Shown here: piece by piece, positions 45,961-53,883 of the stretch | How the letters are laid out: the number at the start of each line of letters is the position of its first letter | Position numbering within the stretch: position 1 is the stretch's first letter | DNA from: Acinetobacter sp. ANC 4648 | GTDB taxonomy: Bacteria > Pseudomonadota > Gammaproteobacteria > Pseudomonadales > Moraxellaceae | NCBI RefSeq assembly: GCF_002135345.1 | Contig: NZ_NEGI01000002.1 | Span: 124,001 to 188,000 of the forward strand | DNA length: 64,000 bases | Direction: 5' to 3' | Position numbers and translations under genes: made by a program | The notes under the pieces: generated by a model | Told to the model about the DNA's origin: nothing | Database searches by the model: none | The model's input: the letters and a program-made list of their open reading frames with translations, nothing else

Positions 45961-47043
45961 TTAAGCTTGATGACGTTTTGCGAAATCATCCATAAAGTTC
46001 ACAAGGGCTTGCACACCCGCTAATGGAACAGCATTATAAATACTTGCACGCATCCCACCCACAGAACGGTGACCTGCTAAATTAAGCAAATGATTATCTT
46101 CTGCTTCTTTTAAGAATAATTTATCCAGATCCGCATTTGCTAAAGTAAATGGTACATTCATGATTGAACGATTCGCTTCAAAAATGGGATTGGCATAGAA
46201 ATCACTTGAATCGATATAACCATACAAAAGTTTGGCTTTCTCAAGATTCACTTTATGTATGGCATCTACACCGCCCTGCTCAAGCAACCATTCAAAAACC
46301 AATCCTGACAAATACCATGCATAAGTCGATGGCGTATTCACCATTGAATCATTTTTCGCTTGTGCTGAATATTGTAAAATGCTTGGAATTTCAGTTTTAG
46401 CCTGATCAAGCAAATCATCACGTACAATAACCAATGTTAAGCCTGCAGGACCGATATTCTTTTGCGCACCGGCATAAATCAAACCAAATTTTGACACATC
46501 AATCGGTGCTGACAAAATACTTGAAGACAAGTCAGTAACCAACGGTGCATTCACCTCAGGGATCCCTGCAAACTGTAAACCACCTATGGTTTCGTTATCT
46601 GCATAATGCACATAAGCTGCATCTGCTGACAAATTCCAAGTGCTTTGATCGGTAATAGCCAATTTACCATTGATGCTCGTGCCAGCTTCTACAATATTAA
46701 TATCGCCATAACGCTGTGCTTCTTTTAATGCTTTCTCAGACCAAATCCCTGTATGGATATAATCCGCTTTGCTATTTTTACCCAAAAGGTTTAAAGGAAT
46801 GGCAGAAAATTGTAACGATGCGCCACCCTGTAAGAACAAAACTTTATAGTTCTCTGGAATGTTCATCAATTGACGTAAATCAGCTTCTGCTTTTTCTGCA
46901 ACAGCAACATAGTCCTTACTACGATGGCTCATCTCCATGATCGAAAGCCCCTTACCATGCCAATCCAGCATCTCTTGTTGAGCTTTTTCTAAAACGGCAG
47001 TGGGTAATGCAGCAGGACCAGCACAGAAATTGTACGCGCGCAT
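45961..47043 (-). CDS. serC: Phosphoserine aminotransferase
   Basis: PLP enzyme of serine synthesis; it also makes 4-phosphohydroxythreonine for the pyridoxal-phosphate pathway that uses PdxB. The 360-residue protein starts MRAYNFCAGPAALPTAVLEK, contains QGGASLQFSAIPLNL and has the PLP lysine in YAGAQKNIGPAGL; the C-terminal HRSVGGMRASIYNA binds the substrate carboxylate. AAAGGAAAAA precedes ATG 47043; the longer frame from 47094 is rejected. Single gene with its own terminator. Confidence 0.96.
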   Translation of the reverse strand: MRAYNFCAGPAALPTAVLEKAQQEMLDWHGKGLSIMEMSHRSKDYVAVAEKAEADLRQLMNIPENYKVLFLQGGASLQFSAIPLNLLGKNSKADYIHTGIWSEKALKEAQRYGDINIVEAGTSINGKLAITDQSTWNLSADAAYVHYADNETIGGLQFAGIPEVNAPLVTDLSSSILSAPIDVSKFGLIYAGAQKNIGPAGLTLVIVRDDLLDQAKTEIPSILQYSAQAKNDSMVNTPSTYAWYLSGLVFEWLLEQGGVDAIHKVNLEKAKLLYGYIDSSDFYANPIFEANRSIMNVPFTLANADLDKLFLKEAEDNHLLNLAGHRSVGGMRASIYNAVPLAGVQALVNFMDDFAKRHQA

Positions 47044-47375
47044 GATTTTTCCTTTCAAAGTGAAACACAATAAAATGATGGCATTTAACCACATATAACC
47101 TGTGCTTGCAGTAAATTATCCTGAAAATATTTCAATGCAATTCGATGATTGAAGTCAAAATTTCAATCATTATTAATGCAATATTATATATTTAAAAATC
47201 CAGCCATTATTTTCTGAGTAATCAAATAAAATACTCCGACTCACATTAAAAGCCTGATAAAATATAATGATTAAAAATTAAGATACCTACATAAGAAACA
47301 ATATAACCACTGAATTAAAGACACAGCATTTTTTTGCGATGTATAATTTACCCAACGCTGCTGAGTGACCAATTG
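47044..47375. other. Divergent promoter region serC / exporter operon
   Basis: No gene. A 9-bp inverted repeat, ATGATTGAA (47145-47153) and TTCAATCAT (47162-47170), lies in the middle and could be an operator for either direction. No regulator gene is adjacent. Confidence 0.45.
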
Positions 47376-48866
47376 ATGTTGATAAAATTAGAAAAAATAC
47401 AAAAAAAATGTGCTTCATCCATTACAACAATTTTAAAAGTTGCATTACTTACTGCAAGTATTACCCACGCAAGCACAACTTTCGCAGGGAGTCTGAGTTA
47501 TATACAAGCAGAACAATCCATTTTGCAAGATTCTTACAGTAGCCAAGCAAGTCAGGCATTCCAGCAAGCCTCTCAACTTGAAGCAGATGCTGTTAAAGGC
47601 TTAGGACTACCACGCATCGACTTCAATGTTCGTGCTTATGCCTTTCATAATGAAGTCGATATCCCTTTAAACTCTTTTAAAAACAATCTAGAACAAACCC
47701 TTTCCCAAGGCATTAACGATCGAATTGACCAAACCAACTTACCACCAAATATTTCCTATCCTTTAAAAGATGGCTTAAATCAAACCATTCACAATGGCGT
47801 AGGCTTATTTCCAGATTCAGCAAATGTCGTGCTAGAAGATCAAGTGGTTCGCCCAACGGTTTCAGTACTTATGCCGTTATATACTGGCGGACTGACCTCG
47901 AGTGCCAAAGAAGTGGCCAATATTAAAGCTCAGCGCAGTCAACTCACGACGAAACAGCAGCAGGATCTACAACGCCTTGAAATCATTCAGGCATATTTTA
48001 ATACGCAACTACAAAAACAATTATTAAATTCCAGTTATTCCAATTTTAATGCCATGCAAACCCATTACAGCAATGCATTAAAGTTAGAACAACAAGGTTT
48101 TATCAGTAAAGGCCAACGCATGCAGTTTGAAGTTGCAAAGAATAATGCTGAACGTCTTGAACAAAATGCTGAAGCCAATTTCAGATCTAGCTTATTCCAA
48201 CTGAATAATCTTTTACAAAGTAGCCAAATTACCGACTTAACCACACCTTTATTTGTCAATTCTGTACAGAGCCAATCTTTAAATACATTGTTAAAAACCT
48301 ATCAAGATCAATCTACACTGATTCGTAAAATGCAAATGGACACACAACTGGCCAATGCCAATGTCAAAGTACAATCCGCAGCAAAAAAACCCAATCTTTT
48401 TGCATTTGGTGAATATAGTTTAGATGAAAAGCAAAACTGGATTGTCGGTGTAGTTGCCCGCTACAATTTATTTTCAGGCATAGATAAGAACAAAAGTATT
48501 CAAGCAGCGGAGCTACAACGCTATGCTTCTGAGTTATTAACTGAACGAACTAAACAAGAAATTGAAAATATTATTTATAAATCTTATAGCGAAATGGCCA
48601 GTGCACAACGTAGTCAGCAACTTATTCAGCAAAATATGCTAGCAGCTCAAGAAAATTTACGCATTCAAACTTTATCTTTTAAAGAGGATATGGGCACAGC
48701 AACTCAAGTCATTGATGCACAAAATGCTCTGAATGGCCTGAAAAGTGAAATGGCACTGAATGCTTATAAATATGTCATATCCTTGGCCACATTATTGCAA
48801 AGTCACGGCTCAATTGACCAATTTCAAAATTATGTTAATCAATCTCAAACCAACTATATTCGTTAA
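47376..48866 (+). CDS. TolC-family outer-membrane channel protein
   Basis: Outer-membrane efflux duct, first gene of a four-gene export unit. The 496-residue protein has a signal peptide (ILKVALLTASITHASTTFAG) and the doubled TolC plan of long helices and strands (LQQDLQRLEIIQAYFNTQLQ-like helix, VVRPTVSVLMPLYTGG strand, QNWIVGVVARYNLFSG strand, then IENIIYKSYSEMASAQRSQQ). ATG 47376 is chosen over a TTG at 47334 because the signal peptide then lies near the N-terminus; the ribosome-binding site is weak. It is followed by HlyD and two ABC-2 genes. Confidence 0.87.
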   Translation: MLIKLEKIQKKCASSITTILKVALLTASITHASTTFAGSLSYIQAEQSILQDSYSSQASQAFQQASQLEADAVKGLGLPRIDFNVRAYAFHNEVDIPLNSFKNNLEQTLSQGINDRIDQTNLPPNISYPLKDGLNQTIHNGVGLFPDSANVVLEDQVVRPTVSVLMPLYTGGLTSSAKEVANIKAQRSQLTTKQQQDLQRLEIIQAYFNTQLQKQLLNSSYSNFNAMQTHYSNALKLEQQGFISKGQRMQFEVAKNNAERLEQNAEANFRSSLFQLNNLLQSSQITDLTTPLFVNSVQSQSLNTLLKTYQDQSTLIRKMQMDTQLANANVKVQSAAKKPNLFAFGEYSLDEKQNWIVGVVARYNLFSGIDKNKSIQAAELQRYASELLTERTKQEIENIIYKSYSEMASAQRSQQLIQQNMLAAQENLRIQTLSFKEDMGTATQVIDAQNALNGLKSEMALNAYKYVISLATLLQSHGSIDQFQNYVNQSQTNYIR

Positions 48867-48886
48867 TTCTTGATGGGGAAAATTAG

Positions 48887-50080
48887 ATGACTCAAGATCA
48901 AAAAAATCATGATCAAGATACAGAAAAAGCCTTATCTGAAGGAACGTCTACAGATGAATCTCAAATACCAACCACACAAAATCCAACTGCTGCTTCTCAA
49001 GAAGAATCCACGCATGCTGAAGCTGATATAACATCAAATAACTCATCTACACATCAACAAGCAGATAAAAACAAACAGCGTATTGATCAGAAAAAACCTA
49101 AACTCCTCAAAATTGTAGGCATCATTGCGCTAATTTTAATCTTGGGTTTGATTGCTTTTGGTTTATGGAAAAGTTATCAGCCCAAGGAAATTGAATTACA
49201 AGGCCGAGTTGAAGCGGATACCGTTTATGTGAGTACCAAAGTCCCCAGCCGGATTGAAGAAATTTACGTGCATGAAGGTCAAAGAATCATCAAAGGTCAA
49301 GAGTTGGTGCGTTTATATAGCCCTGAAGTTGATGCAAAAAAACAGCAGGCTTTAGGCCTTTTACAATCAGCTCTCGCACTACAATCAACTGCTGAGCGAG
49401 GTTCTCAAGAAGAAAATGTTGCGACACTTTATGCCAACTGGCAAAGTTTAAAAGCACAAGAACAATTAGCCAAAACCACCTATCAACGGGGTGAGAATCT
49501 ATTTAAAGAAGGTGTCATTTCTCGGCAACGACGGGATGAAATGCACGCAGCCGCAATCTCTGCAACAGAACTGACTGAAGCTGCCCATCAACAATACCTT
49601 CGTGCGCAACGAGGCAGCACCCCACAACAAAAATCTTCTGCGGATGCTCAAGTTCAAATTGCTCAAGCTGCTGTTGCGGAAGCCAATGCTTTAGAGGCAG
49701 AAACTAAATTACTCGCCCCCATTAATGGCACCGTATCAAAAACCTATGGCAAAGTCTCTGAATTGGTCGTCATCGGTGTACCCGTGGTAAGTATTATTCA
49801 AGATGATCATTTAAAGGTGAGCTTTAATGTGCGGGAAGACCAATATGCACAAGTCTATCAAGCAAAAACTATACAGGGTTTTATTCCTGCACTTAACAAA
49901 ATAGCGATCTTTAAAATTAAAAATATTGATGTTGAAGGTGAGTTTGCTACGCTTAAAACCACTCGCCAGACAGGTGGTTATGACATTCGCAGTTTCAAAG
50001 TCCATGTGGTTCCTGTACAGGCCCTACCAGATTTAAAAGTAGGGATGAGCGTTCTATTTAAAGTAAAAGAGACAAACTAA
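48887..50080 (+). CDS. HlyD-family periplasmic adaptor
   Basis: Membrane-fusion protein linking inner-membrane and outer-membrane parts of the exporter. The 397 residues have an unusually long, polar, Ser/Thr/Gln-rich cytoplasmic tail (about 1-70), one transmembrane helix (LKIVGIIALILILGLIAFGL), a lipoyl half-motif (ELQGRVEADTVYVSTKVPSR), a long coiled coil (about 150-265) and a closing barrel (LLAPINGTVSKTYGKVSELV). GGGGA precedes the ATG. Its stop overlaps the next gene's start by one base (TAATG). Confidence 0.88.
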   Translation: MTQDQKNHDQDTEKALSEGTSTDESQIPTTQNPTAASQEESTHAEADITSNNSSTHQQADKNKQRIDQKKPKLLKIVGIIALILILGLIAFGLWKSYQPKEIELQGRVEADTVYVSTKVPSRIEEIYVHEGQRIIKGQELVRLYSPEVDAKKQQALGLLQSALALQSTAERGSQEENVATLYANWQSLKAQEQLAKTTYQRGENLFKEGVISRQRRDEMHAAAISATELTEAAHQQYLRAQRGSTPQQKSSADAQVQIAQAAVAEANALEAETKLLAPINGTVSKTYGKVSELVVIGVPVVSIIQDDHLKVSFNVREDQYAQVYQAKTIQGFIPALNKIAIFKIKNIDVEGEFATLKTTRQTGGYDIRSFKVHVVPVQALPDLKVGMSVLFKVKETN

Positions 50081-51210
50081 TGTGGTCTGGCTTGCTGCGT
50101 GAACTACGCTATTTACTAACACATAAATGGGACTTGTGTTTGGTCACACTCGCACCATTATTTATCATTGTGTTATTCACTAGCATGTTTTATCAAGGTA
50201 AGCCTGAGCATTTACCTATCGCTATTATTGACCAAGACCAAAGCACATTAAGCCAAAATATTGAAAAATATTTGAGTCATAATCCCACTTTAAAAATTAT
50301 CACTATTTCACAAAGCCCCGATGAAGTTGAAAAGTTACTCAATCAAACCCAGATTTGGGGCTATGTTCATATTCCCGAAGGTGCTGAACAACGATTGGTT
50401 CGAGCACAAGATGCCGAAATTAGCATCGCTTTTAACCAAAGTTACTTTAGTGTAGGTAACGCAATTTCTTCTGCAATGTTGGTCAGTACTTTAGAAGCTA
50501 TGGTTAATTTCACAGGACAAAACTATTTAGAAAATACCATCCCTTATTTAGATATTCCAACACCGCATGTCAAAATATCCCCCTTATATAATCCAAGTCT
50601 AAGTTACGAATTTTATTTAGAACCATTTGTGATTCCCGCTATTTTGCATTTATTGTTGTGTTGTTGTGTGGCTTTTGCAGTTGGACAAGAATTTAAATTT
50701 AATACAACAACGCAATGGCTCAATCAAAAGGGCCTCTTTCGTGCATTATTATCTAAAAATTTAACCTATGTATTTATTTTTAGCGCATGGACTTGGGCAT
50801 GGATGTTCTGGCTTATTGAAATTCGAGGTTGGTTTGTCGCAGGTCATCTGTGGGTAATTTTACTCGCACAGTTTTTCTTTTACAGTGCGTATGCTTTTAT
50901 TAGTAGTACGGTGGTTCTTGCAACTCATAATTTAAACAAAACTTTTGGTTTTATTGCGGTATATGGGGGTTCATCCTTAAGTTTTGCTGGAGTTACTTTA
51001 CCATTGAATAATGCCCCTCTCTTTACTCAATTCTGGGCCAACATTATTCCTTACACTCCTTATGCAAAATTACAAACTGAGCAATGGGTCATTGGAAGCC
51101 CTATTTCTACTTCTCTTTTCCCATTGGCTATATTAATACTCTATACATTCTTTTATTTTGGCACCGCCTACGTCTTCCTTAAAAAGTATATAAAAGGAAT
51201 ACACGGATGA
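50080..51210 (+). CDS. ABC-2-type membrane protein, first
   Basis: Inner-membrane protein of the ABC2_membrane_3 kind (YhhJ-like). The 376 residues have one N-terminal helix (LCLVTLAPLFIIVLFTSMFY), a periplasmic domain of about 150 residues starting LPIAIIDQDQSTLSQNIEKY and five or six C-terminal helices beginning EFYLEPFVIPAILHLLLCCC. There is no nucleotide-binding domain, and no ATPase gene is next to it. Start and stop overlap the neighbouring genes (TAATG and ATGA), so the operon is tightly coupled. Confidence 0.87.
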   Translation: MWSGLLRELRYLLTHKWDLCLVTLAPLFIIVLFTSMFYQGKPEHLPIAIIDQDQSTLSQNIEKYLSHNPTLKIITISQSPDEVEKLLNQTQIWGYVHIPEGAEQRLVRAQDAEISIAFNQSYFSVGNAISSAMLVSTLEAMVNFTGQNYLENTIPYLDIPTPHVKISPLYNPSLSYEFYLEPFVIPAILHLLLCCCVAFAVGQEFKFNTTTQWLNQKGLFRALLSKNLTYVFIFSAWTWAWMFWLIEIRGWFVAGHLWVILLAQFFFYSAYAFISSTVVLATHNLNKTFGFIAVYGGSSLSFAGVTLPLNNAPLFTQFWANIIPYTPYAKLQTEQWVIGSPISTSLFPLAILILYTFFYFGTAYVFLKKYIKGIHG

Positions 51211-52316
51211 AAAAGAACTGGAAAAACTTTCTACATTATTACCTTAAAACATTTAAGGATATTGCGAGTAATAGCTCAATCCTAACGACATTAATTTTAT
51301 CGGTGTTTTTCTATAGTTTTTTCTATCCAACCGCCTACAAGGCACAACATGCTGAGTCACTACCCATTGTGATTGTTGATGAAGAACAAAGTCTCGTCAC
51401 TGCAACCATTATTGATGAAGTATCAAAAAGCCCGAATGTCAAAATTAAAGCCGTCACTGGAAATTTTGCTGAAGCAGAAATGATGATTAAAACTCAGCAA
51501 GCAGATGGTATTTTATTGTTACCTGATAATTTATCCAATAGTATTTACCGTGGTGAAGTCGGTGGTGTAGGCTTATATCTAAGTGGTGCCTATTTTTTAA
51601 GAACTAAAGAAATTGGCTTAGGTTTAGCCCAATCAATTGAACAAGCGATTGCTGAGCATACTGAGAAATTTAGCCATATTTCACACTTCTCCCCAGCGCT
51701 ATCTATTCATCAAATTCCTTTATTTAATACCTTATCGGGTTATGGTAGTTATGTTTTCCCTGCAATTGCACCTTTAATTATTCATCAAACCATTGTTTTA
51801 GGTTTAAGTATGCTAATTGCTGGCTATAGACAAAATAACTGGCGACCTAAAAAAATTGAACTTTTTGGTTTATTTTGTGCCATTTTAACTATTGGTTGCT
51901 TAGGCTGTTTTTATCTATTTGGCTTTACTTTTTGGTTCTATGATTATCCGCATGGGGGGAATTTTTGGGGCATGCTACTGGCCGTTCCTATCTTCATTAG
52001 TTGTGTGATTGGACTCAGCTTGGTCATTGCTTCATTTTTAGATATGCCTGAACGTGCAGGACACCTCATTGTTTTTACCTCTATTCCACTCTTTTTACTC
52101 TCTGGCACTGCCTGGCCACATTCGGCAATGCCTGAATGGATGCAATACTTAGGTGATGTGCTACCGTCCACCCAAGGGATTCAAATGTTTATTCAACTAA
52201 ATCAGATGGGGGTACCTACTAATCTGATTATTCCTAAAATGATTTATTTAACGATGATTGGCAGTATATTATTAATTTGGAGCTATTTCCGACTCGCTCA
52301 ACCTTATAAAAAATAG
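51207..52316 (+). CDS. ABC-2-type membrane protein, second
   Basis: Partner of the preceding gene with the same plan: one helix (SSILTTLILSVFFYSFFYPT), a periplasmic domain starting LPIVIVDEEQSLVTATIIDE and about five C-terminal helices (TIVLGLSMLIAGYR; IPLFLLSGTAWPHSAMPEWM). The shared P-I-x-I-x-D-x-D/E-x-S start in both proteins points to an old duplication, giving a heterodimer. No nucleotide-binding motif is present. The ATG overlaps the previous stop as ATGA. It is the last gene of the unit; no clear terminator follows. Confidence 0.87.
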   Translation: MKKNWKNFLHYYLKTFKDIASNSSILTTLILSVFFYSFFYPTAYKAQHAESLPIVIVDEEQSLVTATIIDEVSKSPNVKIKAVTGNFAEAEMMIKTQQADGILLLPDNLSNSIYRGEVGGVGLYLSGAYFLRTKEIGLGLAQSIEQAIAEHTEKFSHISHFSPALSIHQIPLFNTLSGYGSYVFPAIAPLIIHQTIVLGLSMLIAGYRQNNWRPKKIELFGLFCAILTIGCLGCFYLFGFTFWFYDYPHGGNFWGMLLAVPIFISCVIGLSLVIASFLDMPERAGHLIVFTSIPLFLLSGTAWPHSAMPEWMQYLGDVLPSTQGIQMFIQLNQMGVPTNLIIPKMIYLTMIGSILLIWSYFRLAQPYKK

Positions 52317-52587: not shown

Positions 52588-53883
52588 ATGAATAAAATTA
52601 AGATTAGCCTTGCATGGCAAATCGTAATTGCACTCATTTTAGGTGTGCTTGTAGGCTCTTTTTTACACTACTCCCCCGAATATCGTGAAGTTTTAGTTAA
52701 TAATTTTCTAAGCCCACTGGGTAAGATCTTTATTAATTTGATTAAGATGATCGTTATTCCACTTGTCGTTTCAATGCTAATTTTAGGTATTGCCAATGCA
52801 AGTCACGGTCAAAATTTAGGTAAGCTCGGCTTCAAAACAATTCTCTATTTTGAAATTATTACAACTGTTGCCATTATCGTTGGTTTAGTTTCAGCGAATG
52901 TATTCCAGCCAGGCGCTGGTATTGATATGTCAAGTTTAACTAAAACTGATATCTCTCAATATCAACAGACCACACAAGAAGTGAGTAGTCATGCTCACGG
53001 TCTGGTTAATACTATTTTATCTTTAATTCCCTCTAATATTTTTGGATCACTCACTGATGGGCACATGTTGCCAATCATCTTCTTTTCGGTGATCTTTGGT
53101 GTTGGCTTAGGCTCATTATCGAAAGAAACCAAAAAACCTTTAATTGATGTTTTACACGCAATTTCTGAAACCATGTTTAAAGTTACGCATATGATCATGT
53201 TATTTGCACCTTTTGGTGTATTTGGTCTGATTGCAGTAACGGTTGCAAACTTTGGTTTTAGCTCTCTGCTGCCATTAGTTAAATTGGCACTGTTGGTTTA
53301 TGCCGCCATTTTCTTCTTCATCTTTGTCATTTTAGGACTTGTAGCTAAATTTTGCGGTTTTAATATTTGGACACTGATTAAGATGTTGAAAGATGAGCTA
53401 ATTTTAGCTTATTCAACTGCAAGTTCAGAAACAGTTTTACCGCGTATCATGGAAAAAATGGAAGCCTATGGTGCACCTAAATCTATTACCAGTTTCGTAA
53501 TTCCAATTGGTTATTCATTTAACTTAGATGGCTCAACACTTTATCAAAGTATTGCAGCTATCTTTATTGCACAACTTTATGGAATTGACTTAAGTGTTAC
53601 CCAACAGGTTATTTTAGTCCTTACGTTAATGATTACTTCGAAAGGTATTGCTGGCGTTCCTGGCGTGTCTTTCGTGGTGCTATTGGCAACATTGGGCAGT
53701 GTTGGTATTCCACTTGAAGGTTTAGCATTTATTGCTGGTATTGACCGTATTTTAGATATGGCACGTACAGTATTAAATGTAATTGGTAATGCCTTAGCTG
53801 TTCTAGTAATCAGCAAATGGGAAGGTCAATTTGATTCTGAAAAGAAAGAATCTTATGAAGTTGAAATGAAACAAGCTGCTTAA
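52588..53883 (+). CDS. gltP: Glutamate/dicarboxylate:cation symporter, GltP/DctA family
   Basis: Inner-membrane DAACS-family carrier for glutamate, aspartate or C4-dicarboxylates. The 431-residue protein has the substrate-site segments LAYSTASSETVLPRIMEKME (serine-rich re-entrant loop), IPIGYSFNLDGSTLYQSIAA and SKGIAGVPGVSFVVLLATLG, plus IDRILDMARTVLNVIGNALA. The middle TASSET and last motif agree with GltP as well as DctA, so the substrate is uncertain. AAGGGA precedes the ATG, and a UUCG-capped terminator follows. Confidence 0.88.
   Translation: MNKIKISLAWQIVIALILGVLVGSFLHYSPEYREVLVNNFLSPLGKIFINLIKMIVIPLVVSMLILGIANASHGQNLGKLGFKTILYFEIITTVAIIVGLVSANVFQPGAGIDMSSLTKTDISQYQQTTQEVSSHAHGLVNTILSLIPSNIFGSLTDGHMLPIIFFSVIFGVGLGSLSKETKKPLIDVLHAISETMFKVTHMIMLFAPFGVFGLIAVTVANFGFSSLLPLVKLALLVYAAIFFFIFVILGLVAKFCGFNIWTLIKMLKDELILAYSTASSETVLPRIMEKMEAYGAPKSITSFVIPIGYSFNLDGSTLYQSIAAIFIAQLYGIDLSVTQQVILVLTLMITSKGIAGVPGVSFVVLLATLGSVGIPLEGLAFIAGIDRILDMARTVLNVIGNALAVLVISKWEGQFDSEKKESYEVEMKQAA

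Follow-up and report, generated by a model that had tools for sequence, protein, structure and literature searches.

The DNA analysed here is a 64,000-nucleotide stretch of Acinetobacter sp. ANC 4648 (contig NZ_NEGI01000002.1, positions 124,001 to 188,000; hereafter the window) that carries, at 47376-52316, an operon for a TolC-family outer-membrane factor (OEP), a HlyD/YbhG-type periplasmic adaptor (HlyD) and two permeases of the ABC-2 class of ATP-binding cassette (ABC) transporters, P1 and P2. A first-pass annotation of the window had described the four genes as tightly coupled and the operon as devoid of a nucleotide-binding domain (NBD) or ATPase gene, and the spacing of the genes, the Pfam matches and the flanking genes bear out both points. 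The comparisons below indicate that the system likely functions independently of an ATPase, and we lean towards reading it as an ATPase-free tripartite exporter in which a P1-P2 heterodimer would act as a secondary transporter driven by an ion gradient, with polar residues taking part. The four genes are:

47376-48866, + strand: OEP, TolC-family outer-membrane factor, 496 amino acids with signal peptide (PF02321, 1.4e-26)
48887-50080, + strand: HlyD, HlyD/YbhG-type periplasmic adaptor, 397 amino acids (HlyD_D23, PF16576, 1.7e-10)
50080-51210, + strand: P1, ABC-2 permease, 376 amino acids (ABC2_membrane_3, PF12698, 6.1e-36)
51207-52316, + strand: P2, ABC-2 permease, 369 amino acids (ABC2_membrane_3, PF12698, 9.1e-31)

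The genes are translationally coupled: OEP and HlyD are separated by 20 bp, HlyD and P1 overlap by 1 bp, and P1 and P2 overlap by 4 bp (ATGA). The mechanically called reading frame of OEP begins farther upstream, at 47334. Pfam returned no ABC_tran match in OEP, HlyD, P1 or P2, and no NBD gene occurs among the genes flanking the operon (serC on the minus strand at 45961-47094 and a dicarboxylate-symporter-like gene at 52588-53883). The ABC2_membrane_3 match spans almost the full length of P1 and of P2, and the operon also holds the adaptor (PF16576) and the TolC-family channel (PF02321) of a tripartite system. The best NCBIfam models for the adaptor, YbhG (PRK03598, 97 bits) and EmrA, both stay under the model cut-offs, and the model nearest to P1 and P2 is the C-terminal permease part of RbbA (46 and 37 bits versus a cut-off of 1050). 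A phmmer search against PDB sequences returned nothing, and promoter and terminator scans gave no more than the chance level. All four genes are under purifying constraint, as judged by codon-position divergence from the nearest relative: divergence at third positions (~0.31) is 3-5 times that at first and 5-9 times that at second positions (0.035-0.068). The recurrence of this gene order in unrelated phyla (see below), together with the constraint on all four genes, puts the four-gene pattern far above chance.

Distribution of the four-gene cassette

Taking a match with E at most 1e-90 as a P1 ortholog within the genus, we found one in 103 of 119 Acinetobacter genomes, those lacking it being mostly small. 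The order OEP-HlyD-P1-P2 without an NBD was seen at 13 further loci spread across the diversity of the genus, one of them frame-broken (L048); at a fourteenth (L055) the contig breaks off after P2. The frame-broken locus, from one Acinetobacter species (G070), is a decaying copy in which a frame break splits P1 and the HlyD gene is unrecognisable. In other families of the order, 5 loci hold the same four genes in different neighbourhoods. When genome contigs were scanned with a P2 alignment, 537 stretches encoding a relative were obtained, and the best 80 of these include Vibrio, Shewanella, Marinobacter, Halomonas, Variovorax and Pseudacidovorax as well as Desulfocapsa, Acidobacteria, Krumholzibacteriia and Verrucomicrobia; among these best 80, the gene order is kept, with few exceptions, wherever the contig spans the cassette. 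Outside the genus, the cassette is present in beta-, alpha- and other gammaproteobacteria, Desulfobacterota, Acidobacteriota, Krumholzibacteriota, Verrucomicrobiota and Bacteroidota, and a phylum-wide draw contained P2 at E at most 1e-40 in 38 of 399 genomes. Copies on plasmids were found in Acinetobacter, Novosphingobium, Rhizobium, Agrobacterium, Parabacteroides, Bacteroides, Prevotella and Citrobacter. At the Alphaproteobacteria and Pseudomonas-like loci examined the OEP gene is absent, with the exception of Novosphingobium. By this comparison of sequences, the missing ATPase is not a local gene loss.

No recurrent neighbour hinting at a substrate was found across genera among the loci read, and single neighbours (TetR regulators, oleate hydratase, phospholipase A1 and a siderophore receptor) offer hints only. 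On Acinetobacter plasmids (L136, L137), the cassette neighbours IS982 elements and a cluster of biotin genes, with a TonB siderophore receptor and PepSY genes downstream. On an Agrobacterium plasmid (L142:5863-10244), HlyD-P1-P2 is followed by an oleate hydratase gene and framed by TetR regulators on both sides, and a link of this cassette to fatty acids is possible through the oleate hydratase neighbour. On Rhizobium plasmids (L140, L227), HlyD-P1-P2 precedes a cyclic-nucleotide-binding mechanosensitive channel, with a PAP2 phosphatase nearby.

Search for an ATPase partner

An ATPase gene encoded elsewhere and co-evolving with the operon would, as the first-pass annotation had pointed out, make the system an ordinary ABC exporter. 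We looked for any NBD within 1.5 kb of P1 and P2 over all fetched loci and found one at 3 of 132 (L086, L214, L218). Among 36 controls, loci that encode YbhS/YbhR-type permeases, 34 had one, which makes this test sensitive. None of the three was retained as a partner of the cassette: by their neighbours, the NBD at L086 belongs to a YadGH-type pair, whose permease was confirmed by Pfam, that at L214 to an ATPase of type I secretion, and that at L218 to an ATPase of an importer. No cognate NBD was thus found at the 132 loci.

In the host genome we placed the PF00005 matches by reading 20 regions and the YbhF locus, and judged partners from neighbouring genes and hydrophobicity, without curated models. 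Each transporter NBD adjoins, or is fused to, its own membrane protein, the remaining NBD proteins are of the ABC-F type or repair proteins, and no orphan transporter NBD was found in these regions. LptB differs in kind, as it sits in the lpt cluster whereas the genes for LptF and LptG, its membrane partners, usually lie at other sites.

Across the genus, YbhF orthologs were detected in 17 genomes, plus one with a split frame, of 117, and YbhF was rejected as a dedicated partner since only ~18/117 genomes have it versus ~103/119 with the operon. When RbbA-type matches are counted with YbhF, 27 of the 117 genomes pass 1e-60, so that at least 76 genus genomes have the operon but no close relative of either protein. 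The host itself has a complete YbhGFSR system (G000:C13:73539-78630, L036), as do only ~15% of genus genomes. A DrrA/YadG-like NBD is present in 117/117 genomes, including those without the operon, and adjoins its own permease, for which reasons it too was dismissed as a dedicated partner. The survey that had been proposed thus found the four-gene set widespread, with no orphan or co-varying ATPase among those tested.

Coupling element, fold and polar residues of P1 and P2

Type V ABC permeases contact the NBD through a cytoplasmic element between the transmembrane helices TM2 and TM3. The coupling motif E.E.GT in this element occurs in 51 of 59 ATPase-partnered control permeases, versus 0 of 67 P1 and 1 of 70 P2 sequences, and the segment, which has an anchor-to-anchor length of 23 in 59/59 controls, is variable in P1 and P2. 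In P2 it is largely deleted, with 72-98% gaps at five control coupling columns. The corresponding parts of the two proteins are:

50689-50757, + strand: P1 residues 204-226, TM2-TM3 segment for NBD coupling in degenerate form, length 19-35 versus a constant 23 in controls
51834-51851, + strand: P2 residues 210-215, short TM2-TM3 turn in place of the coupling element (AlphaFold2 helices 179-209 and 216-244)

In a maximum-likelihood tree P1 forms one group (support 98) and P2 another (100), both apart from the ATPase-partnered permeases, a separation that is partly expected since groups were assigned by profile score and the profiles include the motif and length columns. The differences in motif and length did not enter the assignment directly, and whether an NBD lies next to the permeases played no role in it. 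As judged from the alignments and the tree, P1 and P2 are old, separate clades that have lost the conserved element coupling such permeases to an NBD.

Both proteins are predicted to adopt a type V fold (AlphaFold2 mean predicted local distance difference test 90 for P1, which is ABCH/ABCG-like, and 86 for P2), and Foldseek matched the models to insect ABCH-9C first, then to ABCG, ABCA, KpsM and NosY. With a PF12698 match, a predicted six-helix fold and a periplasmic domain after TM1, they have the characters of ABC-2 permeases. The first-pass annotation had deduced a heterodimer from the periplasmic start shared by P1 and P2, but this start (LPIxIxDxxxS) is a family-wide trait of such permeases and by itself no proof. 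The heterodimer finds its support instead in natural P1-P2 fusions in one frame at three loci (L139:7046-9232, L218:2307-4664 and L220:3432-5975), hosted by a Citrobacter plasmid and two alphaproteobacterial-type genomes, so that a P1-P2 heterodimer is probable in this species as well.

Three polar positions set P1 and P2 apart from ATPase-partnered permeases:

50647-50649, + strand: P1 His190, middle of TM2; His or Gln in most P1, Thr/Leu/Met in ATPase-partnered permeases
51783-51788, + strand: P2 His193-Gln194, middle of TM2; position 193 His or Gln in 96% and Gln194 in 100% of P2
52050-52052, + strand: P2 Glu282, cytoplasmic start of TM5; acidic in 97% of P2, not in controls

His or Gln at P2 position 193 and Gln194 were not seen in ATPase-partnered permeases, which have Thr/Leu/Met at the TM2 columns, and the TM2 His/Gln residues together with P2 Glu282 would fit a new polar or ion-handling site.

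The adaptor has a further feature, a polar cytoplasmic tail that the first-pass annotation had singled out as an unusual part of the system:

48887-49102, + strand: HlyD residues 1-72, a polar, acidic cytoplasmic tail at the N-terminus; variable and specific to Acinetobacter

The tail exists, but it measures 31-92 residues in 13 Acinetobacter sequences, where it is poorly conserved, and 0-24 residues in 5 sequences of other families. As a lineage-specific feature it was rejected as a mechanistic part, and on these sequences it is a variable Acinetobacter extension outside the core of the system.

Energy source and comparison with known systems

In the reading we favour, the TolC-type channel, the YbhG/HlyD-type adaptor and a P1-P2 heterodimer pump of type V fold would form a tripartite envelope exporter, which throughout the clade would operate without any ABC ATPase. 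The pump would collect its substrates, hydrophobic or amphipathic molecules, in the periplasm or inner membrane and pass them into the TolC conduit, and a proton (or sodium) gradient would drive P1-P2 as a secondary transporter, with P1 His190, P2 His193-Gln194 and P2 Glu282 at the cytoplasmic face taking part in ion or substrate handling. Ion-gradient drive is our best guess among several. Ion coupling has precedents: LmrA without its NBD acts as a secondary transporter coupled to protons (PMC2704374), and YbhFSR, the nearest system with an ATPase, is reported as a Na+/H+ antiporter in a review that calls for further work (PMC8277102). Several points weigh against ion-gradient drive or against independence from an ATPase. 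LmrA has a type IV fold, unlike P1 and P2; no membrane helix of P1 or P2 has a conserved acidic residue deep within it; and the TM2 site is Gln in both subunits at ~24 loci, which excludes an obligatory His proton relay family-wide. Moreover, P1 keeps a remnant of the coupling motif (E204 in 73%, K226 in 79%) and has an R7-E8 pair at its N-terminus that is similar to the KE of permeases bound to an ATPase. The idea of a coevolving proton site with a single His in each heterodimer was discarded, as the combinations HQ, QH, QQ and HH are all seen.

The lack of clear ion-coupling carboxylates within the membrane would suit a P1-P2 that is a gated port or a membrane anchor for the HlyD-TolC conduit, any transport being driven by the substrate's own gradient. 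Receptors and components of secretion systems are known among ATPase-free ABC-2-like proteins (YhgE/Pip, EsaA), and nine Variovorax loci have a related ABC2_membrane_3/DUF3533 protein upstream of the cassette. The conserved polar residues specific to the family (TM2, TM5) and the wide conservation with tripartite partners nevertheless suggest an active pump, and we regard such a passive or scaffold role as unlikely, though deserving some weight. A somewhat smaller chance falls to an NBD encoded elsewhere (DrrA/YadG-like, LptB or another core NBD) that docks on P1, perhaps asymmetrically through the remnant motif, and powers the pump: E204, K226 and the N-terminal R-E are kept in most P1 relatives and the YadG-like NBD is always available, being present throughout the genus. 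However, no NBD tested follows the distribution of the operon, each host transporter NBD adjoins its own membrane partner, the coupling segment is missing in P2 and its GT and fixed length are lost in P1, and plasmid copies in other phyla move without an NBD. Among the energy options that the first-pass annotation had listed (borrowed ATPase, proton force, passive operation), the first has thus become unlikely because the coupling element is lost. That the operon is an ordinary ABC exporter, degenerate or overlooked, whose ATPase was recently lost or sits unrecognised nearby, is suggested by the ATPases of its closest relatives with similar partners, the YbhFSR and RbbA systems; it is very improbable given no ATPase over 132 loci in many phyla, purifying selection, and the old, separate clades of P1 and P2.

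Beyond the favoured reading of an exporter with a P1-P2 secondary transporter, we tentatively raise an evolutionary scenario that may well not hold: a natural conversion of an ABC exporter to an ion-gradient secondary transporter, old, widespread and partly plasmid-borne, in which the ATPase and coupling helix would have been shed and the His/Gln of both subunits and the P2 Glu gained for ion coupling. The component families are already known, and the ATPase-free ABC-2 tripartite clade is without description in the literature searched; no account of such a system was found in the open-licence literature, outside of which most subscription journals lie. The public annotation "ABC transporter permease" implies ATP-driven transport for P1 and P2. 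If transport is ATP-independent, both the class and the energy source now assigned are wrong for an efflux system that is near-core in Acinetobacter and also resides on plasmids in several phyla. The cassette also offers a natural case for testing whether secondary transport can be carried out by an ABC membrane domain, which has hitherto been studied mainly on engineered proteins.

Among known systems, YbhGFSR shares the HlyD/YbhG-type adaptor and two PF12698 permeases, but has the tandem-NBD ATPase YbhF and permeases with E.E.GT, whereas P1 and P2 form separate clades without this motif. YhiI-RbbA-YhhJ likewise has an adaptor and ABC-2 permeases, but its RbbA carries fused NBDs. With no tandem-NBD ATPase in the operon and P1 and P2 outside those permease clades, the cassette falls in neither group; a Zymomonas operon from the literature was excluded from the family as it carries RbbA. 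MacAB-TolC is also tripartite, with adaptor and TolC, but MacB belongs to the type VII transporters and carries an NBD of its own, and the host has a separate MacB-like gene (L153). YhgE/Pip resembles P1 and P2 in having an ABC-2-like membrane domain without an NBD; in contrast, P1 and P2 match PF12698 over nearly their full length, have no Pfam match to DUF3533 (PF12051) and are accompanied by an adaptor and TolC. At L090:1579-3495 and eight other loci, all from Variovorax, an ATPase-less ABC2_membrane_3/DUF3533 (YhgE/Pip-like) protein is encoded directly upstream of the cassette, the DUF3533 match of the Variovorax protein being weak and slightly below the cut-off. EsaA, another ABC-2-like protein without an ATPase, differs from the cassette, which has an adaptor and TolC. 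The Bacteroides thetaiotaomicron BT3902-04 operon resembles the cassette by annotation only (PMC10434189). NBD-truncated LmrA (LmrA-MD) is, like P1-P2, an ABC membrane domain lacking an NBD, and it transports without ATP in a proton-coupled manner (PMC2704374); it differs in being an engineered, homodimeric truncation of type IV fold that works without an adaptor or TolC.

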